Virus record (IMG/VR): IMGVR_UViG_3300044995_000411
Coordinates: 1 to 36,539 of that record
Direction: 5' to 3' (one strand)
Length of the DNA: 36,539 nt
Source of the DNA: a virus
Of the stretch, positions 3,758-36,539 are shown in pieces. Under the pieces are notes generated by a model, which did no database searches, was not told the DNA's origin, and saw nothing but the letters and a program-made list of their open reading frames with translations. How positions within the stretch are numbered: position 1 is the first letter of the stretch; every line of letters begins with the position of its first letter. A program made the translations under genes and the position numbers.

Positions 3758-3776
3758 TTTCTATTTAGGAGTGACA

Positions 3777-6227
3777 ATGCCGGAGTTTCCTCTTTCTCAA
3801 TCCCCAAAAACTCAAGCTTTTGCGCAACTGCAACAACCACAACCTGATGAAAAAGACATTTTTCAACAGCAGTTTGCGCAATTGGCGTACCAAGCATTTT
3901 CCAAAATGCGGCCTGAGCTACTAGCTGAGGTCATCACATTTCGCATTTTGGAAGTAGATGTCGAGGCAGGTCTTGGGATCGGTGCCTTTCTTTTGCGCCA
4001 CGCTCAGGACTTGCTTACGGTGCCTTGTGTTGTCTCAAACAACACGATCAAACCGTTGGATATGTTTTATTCGCGCGCTAACGATAGGTTTTATCCCCTA
4101 ACAACAGAATGGCTTGATGAAGCAACGAAAGACCAAGTATCTCAGATCGGAGGTAGTGCAAAAGCTCCCAAGACGCTGATCCGTAATATGGATATCCGTC
4201 GAGCTGTAGTACCCCCCAACATAGGAAGGTACTCATACGCAGAAGAAAAGGAAGCAGCCTGGGCCCCTTTTATTAGCGCTGAATATTCTCGAACACAAAA
4301 AGTAGCCGAAACTTATGAAGGCAAATTTATTGAGGCACTTAGCCTTACTCCAAATGAATTCAAAGTAGCGTATGAGCGGATTCTTATCAAAAATCCAGAT
4401 TTTGCCTATAAGCTCAGCTCTATCTACGGAGCTCAAGAGCTACGAAACGCGCTAGAGCAAAGGTCTACAAAAATTGCACATGATCATAAGCTGGAACAAC
4501 CAGCAAAAGGAGATGTACGAGTACTTACCGCAGCAACACCATTTTCAGAAAGCGCTCGTGGATTAGACCCAGAAGAAAAAGCACAAGCCTATCAGTCAAT
4601 TCGATTGTACGGCATTTATGTAAAGGACACTAGAAAGGAACTAAACTCGCTATTTGCCTTTTCAGAAAGCGATTTCCAACTCATCACTCCAACCGTAGCA
4701 GGTCTTTACAAAGTCTGGATGTCGGATGGGTCTATGGAACTCGTTGTAATTATTCCTAACCCGATCACTTTCAGTATTTCAAGTACTGTATGCAATAAAC
4801 AACCCTACTACGGTATTTATTTTCGCGATGGGCGTTATGAATGGTTGCCTGGAAAACTACTTGCCGAGCCTGTCCTTGAAGCATCTGTAGCTGATGTAGA
4901 AGACTTTATTCGCCCATTGACACTTGAAACACCAGAAAATGGTAAAGAAGGTACATTCTTTAGTAGTGCACGTATGAGCTTTAGAGCTACTGCGCCAATT
5001 TTTGCACTAAATGTTACTAAAGACTCTAAACGTCTTTACCTTCAAACGCCTGAAGGTACGTCTGTTACAATTGTTAAAAATATCTCTCCTGGCACCGTAA
5101 TTGCAGCAGATAATGGACGCACTCTTATATTGGGATCATCTTTCAAATGGGTGCGCCGTCGTTCAAGTAAATCTGATCGTGATAAAAAAATCCTGACAAA
5201 TATGCAGGAAATTATGACGGCTATCGAGTCTAGAATCGGTGGCGAACGAATGGTCATTAAACAGGCTGCCGACAACGAATGGGTAGTTCACGGAGTAAAT
5301 CGCCACCTTAGTACACACGAAGCGTTAGAAAAGATTGCAAAAATTTACAACATCTCTGTCCAAGACGCCGCTGACGCCATGGCCTACGTAGCTATGAGTA
5401 CTGGAGCACGGCTATTGGCTGTCAAACAAGCTGCTGAGTCTCTCAATCCAGATGGATCGCCTATGGAGCCGCCCCCTGAAAATACTCCGCCTCCGGGGCC
5501 TAACGGGCTGCAGCTGGCCATTGGAGAAAAAATGCAGCAAATCGCAGGACAAATTGCTGCCCTGCAACAACAGCAACAAATGTTGCAAGAAATCGCACAA
5601 CGATCAGCGATGATCGACCAAAATGGTGGTGCTGTAGCAGCCCCAGCAGCTGCAGCAGAAATGATGGCAGGCCCCAACAACTTCATCATGGGGCAACCTG
5701 TTATGGCACCCGTTGCGGCACAAGGTATACCTCAAGGTATGCCTCAAGGTATGCCTCAAGGTATGCCTCAAGGTATGCCTCAAGGTATGCCTCAAGGTAT
5801 GCCTCAAGGTATGCCTCAAGGTATGCCTCAAGGTATGCCTCAAGGTATGCCTCAAGAACCCACACCACCTCCTGTCATGCCCATCGACGGACCTTCTTAT
5901 GAAAATCTACATGAACAAATAAATCCTGAATTCCTCAATCAAGTAGCAGAACTGGGTGACGCAAGAATATTTGATGCGGTCGCAATTGCGTCTCTTGCAA
6001 AACAGCGATCGCTTCGTCCCGTCTTGCAAAAATACTTGCCCACCCTTGAAGCAGCTCTCGACAGTTTGGGTCGAATGCTACTACTCTTCTATGTCAAAGA
6101 AAGAAGTATACAAGAAATCCTGGGAGCAGACGCACAAACAGAAACTGAACAAAAAATTAGAGATGTGTTTCACAGTCTAGGAAACACAATACTCACATTA
6201 TCACAATTTGCGGACGCCGCGACATAA
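3777..6227 (+). CDS. Large virion structural protein with a PQGM repeat tract
   Basis: The ATG at 3777 is preferred over GTG 3771 because AGGAG (3767-3771) overlaps the GTG. 816 residues. The N-terminal half is mixed alpha/beta and includes a Pro-Leu-Asp-Met-Phe-Tyr segment followed by a Phe-Tyr-Pro-Leu segment. The middle holds several Lys-x-Ala motifs. Residues about 560-600 are Gln-rich and coiled-coil-like, followed by ten exact Pro-Gln-Gly-Met repeats and a helical C-terminus. It opens the long head operon (the next gene is 6 bases away). A structural role is inferred from length and position; a portal cannot be excluded but no portal signature is visible. Confidence 0.75.
5730..5849 (+). 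repeat. Ten identical 12-bp tandem repeats (CCTCAAGGTATG)
   Basis: Ten perfect copies occupy exactly 120 bases, each encoding Pro-Gln-Gly-Met in the 3777-6227 protein. A degenerate copy precedes them and a truncated copy follows. The lack of any divergence implies recent expansion by slippage. Any change in copy number stays in frame. Confidence 0.95.
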
Positions 6228-6233
6228 GGAGCC

Positions 6234-6941
6234 ATGCCGCAAACGCCACCAGACTACAAAGCCATTGAGATTATTGCTGCAGCAAAAGCAGGCGGACCAA
6301 TTCCAGAAGAACCGCTTGAAGCTGCATTATACCATGCGGTTCGTGGTGATACATCTGTATCAACTGCAGTAAATGAAGCGTTTGCTTTGTATCAAGATAA
6401 TGAATTTTGTCATATCATGAATGCTTTGGTGCTAGCTGACGCTCCTGCGCATTCTGTAGCAGCGTCAAGTGGCGTATCTGAAACCATATACGCCACTTAT
6501 AAAGCATTATTTTTTCGGCCTGACGTATTCCCACATAATTTTGCTAAAGCGCGTTATGTCGCACAACTTGATTTACCTGAACCACAAAAAAAACTCTACG
6601 AAATTGCACGAGATCAAGGGTACAAACCTCTACTAGACAAAACACAATTTGGTACAAAAAAACGAATTGACGCAAACGAAGTTCGGCAAGAAGCGCTTGA
6701 AGATATGTGGGTCAGGTTTACCTCTCACCGAGGTAAACCAATCACTTCTGAAGAAGTAACAGCCGCCCTTCAGTGGGGTAAAGCAGCTCTTGCAGTTGCC
6801 GAAAAAATCTGTGAAGAGCAAAAAGACTTGCGACGTAGCAAAGAAGGCGAAGAAGAACTTCGTATTGCGCTTAACGTCGTCAAAACGCGAACAACACCTG
6901 AAGATCTTGGGATCAAACGCGAAGATATTATCAGCGACTAA
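6234..6941 (+). CDS. Head-operon protein with a possible helix-turn-helix
   Basis: AAGGAG lies directly before ATG 6234. 235 residues, predicted helical. A segment near residues 65-95 (Val-Ala-Ala-Ser-Ser-Gly-Val-Ser-Glu-Thr, then Tyr..Leu-Phe-Phe) has the spacing of a helix-turn-helix of the kind in which a short recognition helix precedes a Tyr..Phe-Phe pair. The C-terminal half is charged. A DNA-binding or small-terminase-like role is possible but unproven. Confidence 0.65.
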   Translation: MPQTPPDYKAIEIIAAAKAGGPIPEEPLEAALYHAVRGDTSVSTAVNEAFALYQDNEFCHIMNALVLADAPAHSVAASSGVSETIYATYKALFFRPDVFPHNFAKARYVAQLDLPEPQKKLYEIARDQGYKPLLDKTQFGTKKRIDANEVRQEALEDMWVRFTSHRGKPITSEEVTAALQWGKAALAVAEKICEEQKDLRRSKEGEEELRIALNVVKTRTTPEDLGIKREDIISD

Positions 6942-34873: not shown

Positions 34874-35419
34874 TTATTCTTCGTTGTCGTTGTCGTCAAC
34901 GTCACGGTACTCAACGGCAAGCAGATATGCTCCGTCGCCCTCGCTTGGCTCTAAAGTCAGGCCTACAGCGTTGAGCGCGGTTTCTGCCGCTTTGTACCAT
35001 TTTTCGTCATCCCACGCTTCATGGGAGCCTAGTCCCATGCAACGCGGACACCTTCCATCTCCGCGCGTGACAAGTGCGCTGAGACGTTCTGATGCTGCGC
35101 GGATATGAGAGGGCCAGTTGAGCGCTGGACCGTATTGAGAAATCCACCGTTGGCGTTGTCGCCGGTTGCGATTCTCCCATTTTATGCGTACGCGTCGTTT
35201 TACACGACAACGCACTTTACCTGTGCCCTTGCAGTTAGGGCAAATATCAAGATTGTCATACGAAAATGGCGTGCAACATTTGCCGCTCGGTGTAAGAGAT
35301 TTAATAGAGCCTAAGGTTATCGCACGGCGTTCTTGTCCTGGCTCGTACAATATCCAGTTTTCACAGTTTACGAGTTCTCGTACAATTTGTGGGTCGAATC
35401 CGAGTTTAATCTTAGACAT
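34874..35419 (-). CDS. Zinc-motif protein with two DnaJ-type CxxCxGxG motifs
   Basis: 181 residues from ATG 35419 (ACAGGT upstream). Cys-Pro-Asn-Cys-Lys-Gly-Thr-Gly near 60 and Cys-Pro-Arg-Cys-Met-Gly-Leu-Gly near 124 match the zinc-binding repeats of DnaJ, but only two copies and no J domain are present. Between them is a very basic Arg-rich helix, suggesting nucleic-acid contact. The C-terminus is acidic. Function unknown; a zinc-stabilised accessory protein is inferred. Confidence 0.65.
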   Translation of the reverse strand: MSKIKLGFDPQIVRELVNCENWILYEPGQERRAITLGSIKSLTPSGKCCTPFSYDNLDICPNCKGTGKVRCRVKRRVRIKWENRNRRQRQRWISQYGPALNWPSHIRAASERLSALVTRGDGRCPRCMGLGSHEAWDDEKWYKAAETALNAVGLTLEPSEGDGAYLLAVEYRDVDDNDNEE

Positions 35420-35465
35420 GGCTACCTGTTATGAACTAGGGTTGTGATGTAATCAAAAACCAAAA

Positions 35466-35516
35466 AAACGCCTCGTAATTCGTAACTTTGGCAATGAAGC
35501 GTATTACGAGGCGTTT
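35466..35516 (-). terminator. Terminator of the PcfJ-like gene, overlapping its stop
   Basis: A perfect 14-bp stem (35466-35479 with 35503-35516, loop 23 bases) runs into seven T on the minus strand. The stop codon of the PcfJ-like gene (35504-35506) lies in one arm. Confidence 0.75.
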
Positions 35517-36539
35517 GTTGTGTTCTCGTCGTGACTGTGTATCACGGCGAGAACTTGGTCGAGAAGAGCTTGGCAGCTCTTCGAAGGCGCCGTGTTCCGG
35601 CGCCCATAATGCTGGGCAACGGTGTACGTACCGTTGCCCTGAGGACGCAGTTCGACGGTACTTCGCGTACCGTCGTCTGATCGCAACGCAAGGATTATTG
35701 ATTCCTTGCGCTGCACATATGGAGCATAGCCCCCCACGCAATGCTCCATATCTTTGCCCTCCTCTACGAGGGTGCGAGAGGTGCGCAACACGCGCACTCC
35801 CTTCGGGAGCTTCGCCTCCCACGGAGGCGCAGGGGCGAGCTCCCTATTCTCCTCTGCGAGGGCAGCAAGACGTGCCGCCGCCACACGCGCAATTGCGCGC
35901 CGCATGACGGCATCCACACCTGTGCCGCCCTCGCCGGTAAGGTCTTCAGGCGCTACCTCGCCGAGGTAATCGAGATAGCGCCCGCGGACAACTTCGCCGT
36001 GCGGCCCGCGAAACTCGCGGTACCGCACAAGCGAAGCTTCCTGTTCCGGTCGCCGCGCAATTTTTAGGATCCAGCGCGCAACCGGAACAGACCGTACAAG
36101 CCGTGCCGCGGCCCACAAATCGGAGTCGCGGAAGGCTTCATCTCTTTCCAAGAGCCAGCGTGGCAGCTGGTTCTCAGAAATTCCCTCTTTGAGGGAGGCA
36201 ACTGCCTCCCCCCGCGTAAGCCCTGGACGAACGGCCTCAGGGGCCTCGCCCAGGACGAGCCGCGCAATCGTGCGCGGCTCCAAGTATGGAGAAAAGGCGG
36301 GACAGAGAGGCCCGCCTTTTGCGATGGCGTAGTTGCGCAAACGCGCAACCCAACGCACATCGAGATCGTAAACTTCGGCGAGCGCCCAAGCGATCGCCGG
36401 GCGGCGCTCAGGTGGCGCCGCCGAGATTTTACGGTCCGCTTCAATCGCGGCATTAAGGTTAAGATGCCGCGTGCGGACAGTGGTGATGTGGTCCGGATCG
36501 GACACCTCCCGTGCCCGATCCTCCTGTCGGGCGCGATCT
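35504..36539 (-). CDS. PcfJ-domain protein (runs off right edge)
   Basis: The visible conventional start is GTG 36505 (333 residues), but the frame stays open to the window edge with charged, coding-like sequence, so the true start may lie outside. The C-terminal domain carries the PcfJ signature: Glu-Gly-Lys-Asp-Met-Glu-His-Cys-Val-Gly-Gly-Tyr at 249-260, a Ser-Ile-Ile-Leu-Ala-Leu-Arg strand, Arg-Ser-Thr-Val-Glu-Leu and a Gln-His-Tyr-Gly-Arg-Arg-Asn end. PcfJ proteins are named after a conjugative plasmid gene and occur in phages; their biochemical role is not known. GC content is high (42/60 at 35821-35880) against 27/60 at 33061-33120. The coding strand is packed with hairpins. Confidence 0.75.
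   Translation of the reverse strand, partial: DRARQEDRAREVSDPDHITTVRTRHLNLNAAIEADRKISAAPPERRPAIAWALAEVYDLDVRWVARLRNYAIAKGGPLCPAFSPYLEPRTIARLVLGEAPEAVRPGLTRGEAVASLKEGISENQLPRWLLERDEAFRDSDLWAAARLVRSVPVARWILKIARRPEQEASLVRYREFRGPHGEVVRGRYLDYLGEVAPEDLTGEGGTGVDAVMRRAIARVAAARLAALAEENRELAPAPPWEAKLPKGVRVLRTSRTLVEEGKDMEHCVGGYAPYVQRKESIILALRSDDGTRSTVELRPQGNGTYTVAQHYGRRNTAPSKSCQALLDQVLAVIHSHDENTTNAS
35522..36532. other. Dense array of about 22 distinct hairpins inside the PcfJ-like gene
   Basis: Consecutive inverted repeats, each of different sequence. Perfect stems include 35614-35623/35630-35639 (10 bp), 35653-35661/35667-35675 (9), 35717-35727/35741-35751 (11), 36041-36050/36081-36090 (10), 36257-36266/36271-36280 (10), 36292-36301/36311-36320 (10) and 36446-36453/36464-36471 (8). 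A compound 18-bp stem spans 35992-36036. They sit end to end through the gene and its stop. Confidence 0.85.

Follow-up and report, generated by a model that had tools for sequence, protein, structure and literature searches.

The coding sequence of a PcfJ-family protein, encoded on the minus strand at the end of a tailed-phage genome fragment, contains ~40 different near-perfect hairpins that follow one another almost end to end. The fragment is an IMG/VR record from a double-stranded DNA (dsDNA) phage, and its whole 36.5-kb length (36,539 nucleotides) is referred to here as the window. These hairpins lie far beyond chance expectation, are specific to this gene and have been kept whilst its alleles diverged. 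The reading that we favour, and to which we assign a little less than an even chance, is that two messages overlap in the gene, one for a PcfJ-family protein and the other an RNA folded upon itself along its whole length, with the sense messenger as the selected molecule.

The PcfJ gene and its hairpin train

Three alleles were compared: that of the window, L021 (from G2, a 123-kb contig) and L022 (from G1, a 78.5-kb contig); further alleles were sought in viral contigs and genome contigs and none was found. The window coding sequence comprises 345 codons including the stop and is truncated at its 5' end by the end of the contig, the full gene having 541 codons, as judged from L021 and L022, of which the first 197 are missing from the window allele. 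Amino acid identity between the window protein and these relatives is 94-96%, the level of protein conservation being put at 92-96%. The PF14284 profile is matched over residues 248-323 with a score of 43.7 bits (gathering cut-off 25, E 3e-11). In common with other members of this PcfJ-like family, the window protein possesses the invariant H, C, V, Y, T and Q residues; its HCVGGY motif is conserved, and H, C, V and Y are invariant across 36 PcfJ proteins. We know of no function for the PcfJ protein. Comparison with solved structures gave no convincing match, and the confident matches in a viral structure library were to PcfJ or unnamed proteins. The GC content of the gene is 62-65%, compared with about 47% in the host phages. 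Two plus-strand open reading frames lie opposite PcfJ, at 35488-35907 (139 aa) and 35741-36067 (108 aa); these long antisense frames are probably a by-product of high GC content and in-register hairpins. The features of the locus are as follows.

34874..35419, minus strand: neighbouring ORF of 181 aa with CxxC motifs, 89% DNA identity to G1/G2
35450..36539, unstranded: stretch at 91-93% DNA identity with G1/G2, with a sharp end of identity at 35450
35459..35519, minus strand: intrinsic terminator, a 14-bp stem (arms 35503-35516 and 35466-35479) followed by a T run
35504..36538, minus strand: PcfJ-family protein gene with the hairpin train within its coding sequence (Pfam PF14284, full-length relatives, hairpin excess)
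35570..35797, minus strand: PcfJ domain, residues 248-323 (hmmscan)
35522..35554, minus strand: hairpin, 13 bp with one G-U in the window, fully Watson-Crick in L022
35563..35582, minus strand: 8-bp hairpin, its position common to all three alleles
35586..35604, minus strand: 7-bp hairpin
35614..35639, minus strand: 10-bp hairpin
35653..35675, minus strand: 9-bp hairpin, from which L021 differs by a change leaving a G-U pair
35687..35710, minus strand: 8-bp hairpin within a longer 12-bp stem
35717..35751, minus strand: 11-bp perfect hairpin, its arms and loop encoding the invariant family motif MEHCVGGYAP
35781..35829, minus strand: 6-bp hairpin (35781-35797) and 7-bp hairpin (35813-35829)
35886..35899, minus strand: perfect 14-nt palindrome
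35949..35982, minus strand: 7-bp hairpin, the core of an imperfect stem of 12 bp (window, L022) to 19 bp (L021)
35992..36036, minus strand: 18 pairs in three blocks, CTTCGC, GTGCGG and CCGCGA (6+6+6)
36041..36090, minus strand: 10-bp stem with a loop of 30 nt
36151..36174, minus strand: 9-bp hairpin with one G-U
36193..36210, minus strand: hairpin with a compensatory A-T to G-C change in L021/L022 (GGCAGTTGCC / GGCGGTCGCC)
36257..36280, minus strand: 10-bp hairpin with identical arms in the three alleles
36292..36320, minus strand: 10-bp hairpin, perfect in the window, with two mismatched pairs in L021/L022
36332..36349, minus strand: 7-bp hairpin
36400..36471, minus strand: two 8-bp hairpins (36400-36422 and 36446-36471)
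36513..36532, minus strand: 6-bp hairpin

All 21 inverted repeats listed in the preliminary description were found in the sequence as described there, 18 of the 21 arm pairs being exact Watson-Crick complements and two (35522/35542 and 36151/36166) containing a single G-U. Stem sizes in the train range from 6 to 19 bp, and the stems do differ in sequence, as had been reported, so that they form no repeat family. The span of 35466-36539 originally given to the feature holds for the coding sequence at 35504-36538, but 35466-35503 is the lower part of the intrinsic terminator. The stem of this terminator includes the PcfJ stop codon and its sequence is compensatorily different in the relatives (CCTCG/CGAGG versus CCCCG/CGGGG). 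At the other end of the gene, in both full-length alleles (L021 and L022), the Shine-Dalgarno GGAG is paired in a hairpin stem just before the ATG. Together, the ribosome-binding site hairpin and the stop-codon terminator indicate that the train spans the gene from ribosome-binding site to terminator.

Excess of stems over chance

The null expectation was taken from synonymous-codon shuffles that keep the protein and the codon counts (300 for the window gene). Perfect stems of at least 8 bp (loop 3-20) number nine in the window gene against 0.48±0.75 in the shuffles, whose maximum was four, and those of at least 10 bp number four against 0.04. In energy predictions, which ignore translation, the sense strand reaches a minimum free energy of -593 kcal/mol against -445±9 in shuffles (z about -16) and the antisense strand -554 against -429±8. 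Folding of the minus-strand transcript against codon-preserving shuffles had been proposed as a check of the original observation, and the excess withstands it. Chance and codon bias are ruled out by the same shuffles. Counting stems of at least 7 bp, the window allele has 18, L022 24 and L021 29, compared with about three in shuffles.

This excess is a property of the gene. Any other kilobase of the window holds at most three perfect stems of at least 8 bp. The ratio of local folding energy over synonymous shuffles is 1.44-1.50 across the three alleles, with the two full-length ones near 1.45. In a survey of 146 ORFs from the window phage and G2, PcfJ scores 1.55 and 1.46 and the median is 1.08; a genome-wide trait of the host phages is thereby ruled out. 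The only comparable ratio in G2 (1.50) comes from an ORF call of 142 codons close to the repeat-rich end of the contig, and this call may not represent a gene. At the start of the G2 contig (L010:1164-1454), four copies of GGTCTCAAACGCCGACGGGCTTG, spaced 53-101 bp and each followed by a different GC-rich palindromic tail, precede tandem 47-bp repeats in apparently non-coding DNA. Elsewhere in the window, ORFs 3771-6227 and 6234-6941 have eight and four stems of at least 7 bp against 1.9 and 0.4 expected, with ratios of about 1.2.

Measured alike, the yardstick ratios are 1.20 and 1.36 for MS2, 1.28-1.37 for Qbeta, 1.06 for lambda and 1.09 for a T4 region, so that by this ratio measure PcfJ folds more strongly than the coding regions of RNA phages. 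The fraction of paired bases rises only from about 62% in shuffles to about 67%, from which it follows that the gain lies in the perfection of stems and not in coverage. Perfect 9-nt arms are enriched 39-84 times in the PcfJ alleles, whilst four of the five MS2/Qbeta genes contain at most one. The base composition of the loops showed no A-richness, which, like the slight rise in pairing and the enrichment of perfect arms, counts against the reading favoured here. Two further measures carried little information: codon-register counts gave an excess in every register, with the 3-to-3 register having the fewest, and discriminate little; and the G-U fraction of predicted pairs shows the same pattern in MS2 and Qbeta. 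As these two phages have an equal energy excess on both strands, a comparison of sense with antisense energies does not discriminate either.

Exchange of the gene between phages

G1 and G2 share 97.8% identity over 78 kb, and PcfJ is their most divergent stretch, where 500-bp segments hold 66, 47 and 32 substitutions and the median is eight. This island of divergence extends from about 45 bp before the ATG to near the stop codon, and the exchange unit thus coincides with the hairpin train to within tens of bases. The window phage is otherwise distant from G1 and G2, with roughly 30-60% protein identity in structural genes, yet its PcfJ gene is 93-94% identical to theirs. Divergence between alleles reaches 10%, and that of the window is a mosaic of the G1 and G2 alleles: its sites side with one or the other in runs (17 switches against 38 expected), which indicates that the alleles recombine with each other. 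The neighbouring ORF at 34874-35419 has its counterpart in G1/G2 about 44 kb from PcfJ, where the surrounding sequence is otherwise unrelated; it is a second recently exchanged gene, and only a mildly structured one.

Maintenance of folding and the molecule concerned

Whether folding is maintained was assessed by re-placing the differences between alleles at random on the same base and codon position, a null that treats sites as independent. Random placement of the G1/G2 differences leaves ~12 stems, compared with the 24-29 found, at an energy loss of about 130-145 kcal/mol (7-8 sd); placement with the window allele points in the same direction. In each of the six directed comparisons, pair-breaking changes within stems show a 2-5 fold depletion, although, with three recombining alleles, these counts are not fully independent. 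Third-position substitutions, stratified by base, are less frequent where bases are paired (odds ratio 0.50-0.67, p 0.02-0.06); the flanking genes show no such difference, but have few changes. Watson-Crick double changes number three and two against null values of 1.3 and 0.9, which is not significant.

A G-T mismatch read on one strand of DNA is read as A-C on the other, whilst in the sense RNA only G-U pairs. A process acting on DNA should therefore treat both kinds of change alike. With stems defined strand-symmetrically, 26 changes between L021 and L022 convert a Watson-Crick pair to G-T (null 31) and nine convert one to A-C (null 32); A-C changes are thus depleted 3.6-fold and G-T changes are near the null. 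The G-T share of 0.74, against 0.49 expected, was attained by fewer than 1 in 400 simulations; the G-T excess recurs when either half of the gene is taken alone and with each of three stem thresholds (P up to 0.0175). In the comparisons involving the window allele, however, G-T and A-C changes stand at 16:16, equal to the null, and the strand-specific evidence consequently rests on one allele pair. The sparing of G-U changes between the G1 and G2 alleles, which provides the strongest evidence for the sense messenger as the selected molecule, is therefore suggestive.

The individual hairpins turn over between alleles, specific stems being replaced by others at the same place (e.g. codons 116-128). 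This implies that it is the density of stable stems that is kept, and not one fixed architecture. Amongst the meanings proposed in the preliminary description, a structured mRNA acting as an RNA element accordingly holds in part: selection appears to act on sense-RNA folding, but the turnover leaves no fixed architecture. An overlapping RNA gene, also proposed, finds no support in view of this replacement of stems and a search of Rfam 15, which gave no match at gathering score in the window, L021 or L022.

Other PcfJ genes and comparable systems

Hairpin richness as a general trait of PcfJ is ruled out over ~60 other PcfJ genes of phages and plasmids, most of which have ratios of 0.9-1.2; unlike the window gene, most members of PF14284 tested have no or only a weak excess. 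The exceptions are L034, L035 and members of generally hairpin-rich genomes. L034, with 47% amino acid identity over a fragment, has a weaker excess (five stems against 0.8), and L035, at 29-34% identity, has 16 stems against 5.1 (z -8) with neighbouring genes at 0.98-1.13. No excess was present in the relatives L032 and L033. A scan of homologues had been suggested at the outset as a check, and its outcome is divided: distant PcfJ genes are without stems, but the closest relatives retain them. The L035 homologue (L035:1951-3768) also has a threonine run near its N-terminus and a GC content of 72%, in a locus of about 63%.

Hairpin-rich coding throughout a genome does occur. The Yersinia phage YerA41 (L087, 60000-105000), described as having thymidine-modified DNA and a primer-independent polymerase (PMC9023294), has a median ratio of 1.24 over 35 ORFs in 45 kb and 183 stems of at least 7 bp against 96 expected. 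Around the PcfJ gene of L049 (IMGVR_UViG_3300033979_000663, 77.7 kb), six of seven ORFs have ratios of 1.24-1.48, and this is possibly another such phage. In YerA41, and apparently in L049, the excess concerns the whole genome and PcfJ is one among many such genes.

No report of hairpin-rich PcfJ genes was found in the literature, with subscription papers mostly outside the scope of the search. The coding palindromes of nematomorph mitochondria (PMC6649704) are similar in that perfect inverted repeats lie within functional protein genes, are gained and lost between relatives and seldom form long stems in the 3-to-3 codon register. They differ in affecting many organelle genes with a small number of long repeats (up to 284 bp) of doubted function, whereas PcfJ is one phage gene with ~40 short repeats and substitution evidence for selection on RNA. 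MS2 and Qbeta likewise fold strongly over synonymous shuffles (1.20-1.37, below the PcfJ ratio); however, their coding RNA is the genome, whereas PcfJ is a single affected gene of a dsDNA tailed phage, and long perfect stems are rare in them and common in PcfJ.

Origin of the stems and alternative explanations

A mutational origin, in which frequent template switching at quasi-palindromes homogenises the arms and selection keeps only the protein, leaving the hairpins functionless, is unlikely on balance but has points in its favour. Beyond the enrichment of perfect 9-nt arms, so scarce in MS2 and Qbeta, and the turnover of stems, differences between alleles occur in clusters (29 adjacent pairs, with 11 expected), and one is an exact 3-nt spacer inversion between identical 8-bp arms (CCCCACGC-TTG-GCGTGGGG versus CCCCACGC-CAA-GCGTGGGG). 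Comparable template-switch signatures, with homogenised arms, inverted spacers and clustered substitutions, are described in yeast genes (PMC8604942) and RNA genes (PMC8794818), and template switching is a suggested cause of the nematomorph palindromes (PMC6649704). Local reverse-complement copying nevertheless explains only 8-15 of 155 differences (0.2-2.3 with random positions), so that template switching, although it probably supplied some stems, is not the whole explanation. It also leaves unexplained why one gene with sharp edges is affected in genomes replicated as a whole and why L035, at 29-34% identity, also has an excess specific to its PcfJ gene, and it predicts equal numbers of G-T and A-C changes, unlike the 26:9 observed. 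The quasi-palindrome correction envisaged in the preliminary description therefore survives as a source of stems, evident in the near-perfect arms, the clustered multi-base changes and the spacer inversion, but does not account for the specificity to one gene or for the sparing of G-U relative to A-C between G1 and G2.

Three further explanations carry less weight. A function at the level of DNA, with hairpins in single-stranded or supercoiled DNA promoting recombination and driving exchange of the gene, is quite unlikely. It would fit PcfJ being the most divergent stretch of G1/G2, the mosaic window allele and the match of exchange unit to hairpin train, and it has a precedent in Plasmodium var genes, where DNA secondary structures are associated with recombination (PMC3936766); yet the ORF at 34874-35419 was also exchanged without comparable hairpins, and a process acting on DNA would not be expected to distinguish G-T from A-C changes. 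That the gene is the GC-rich relic of a recent donor with hairpin-rich coding throughout, akin to YerA41, is slightly less likely still: its base composition is foreign to the host phages, and a whole-genome excess is real in YerA41 and apparent around L049, but searches of viral and genome collections yielded no donor, L035 stands out from its own locus, and folding has been kept through the allele differences, although this maintenance could date to the donors. Chance, codon bias, a repeat family or an assembly artefact we regard as scarcely credible, given the codon-preserving shuffles, the intact gene in two other contigs and the differing sequences of the stems.

Under the favoured reading, of a protein and a selected self-folding messenger encoded together, the transcript would be a chain of short, stable and mostly independent hairpins from ribosome-binding site to terminator. 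Such a folded messenger may limit the access of ribosomes, nucleases or pairing RNAs, which would render it long-lived and slowly translated; with a hairpin at the ribosome-binding site and stable stems throughout, slow, controlled translation of a long-lived messenger is the simplest guess. New stems would probably arise in part by template switching during replication, and we propose that they spread because the gene is exchanged between phages.

Significance

Near-perfect hairpins running end to end are unexpected in the coding sequences of DNA genomes, and here one gene is so built in three alleles whilst its neighbours are not. Since comparison of alleles separates constraint on the protein from constraint on the nucleic acid, PcfJ offers a case in which selection for the bulk self-pairing of a messenger can be tested directly. 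The finding also links the PcfJ family, a gene of unknown function, to rapid exchange between phages, and provides a natural system in which to ask what degree of structure is compatible with translation of an RNA and whether such structure can be built by template switching. More tentatively, a single gene of a dsDNA phage may have been shaped along its whole length to give a hairpin-chain messenger, exceeding in this respect the genomes of single-stranded RNA phages, with self-pairing selected independently of any fixed structure and the messenger itself a functional object. If this is true, the messenger would be, for instance, an RNA that is translated slowly, resists nucleases or is packaged, borne on a gene that is mobile between phages.
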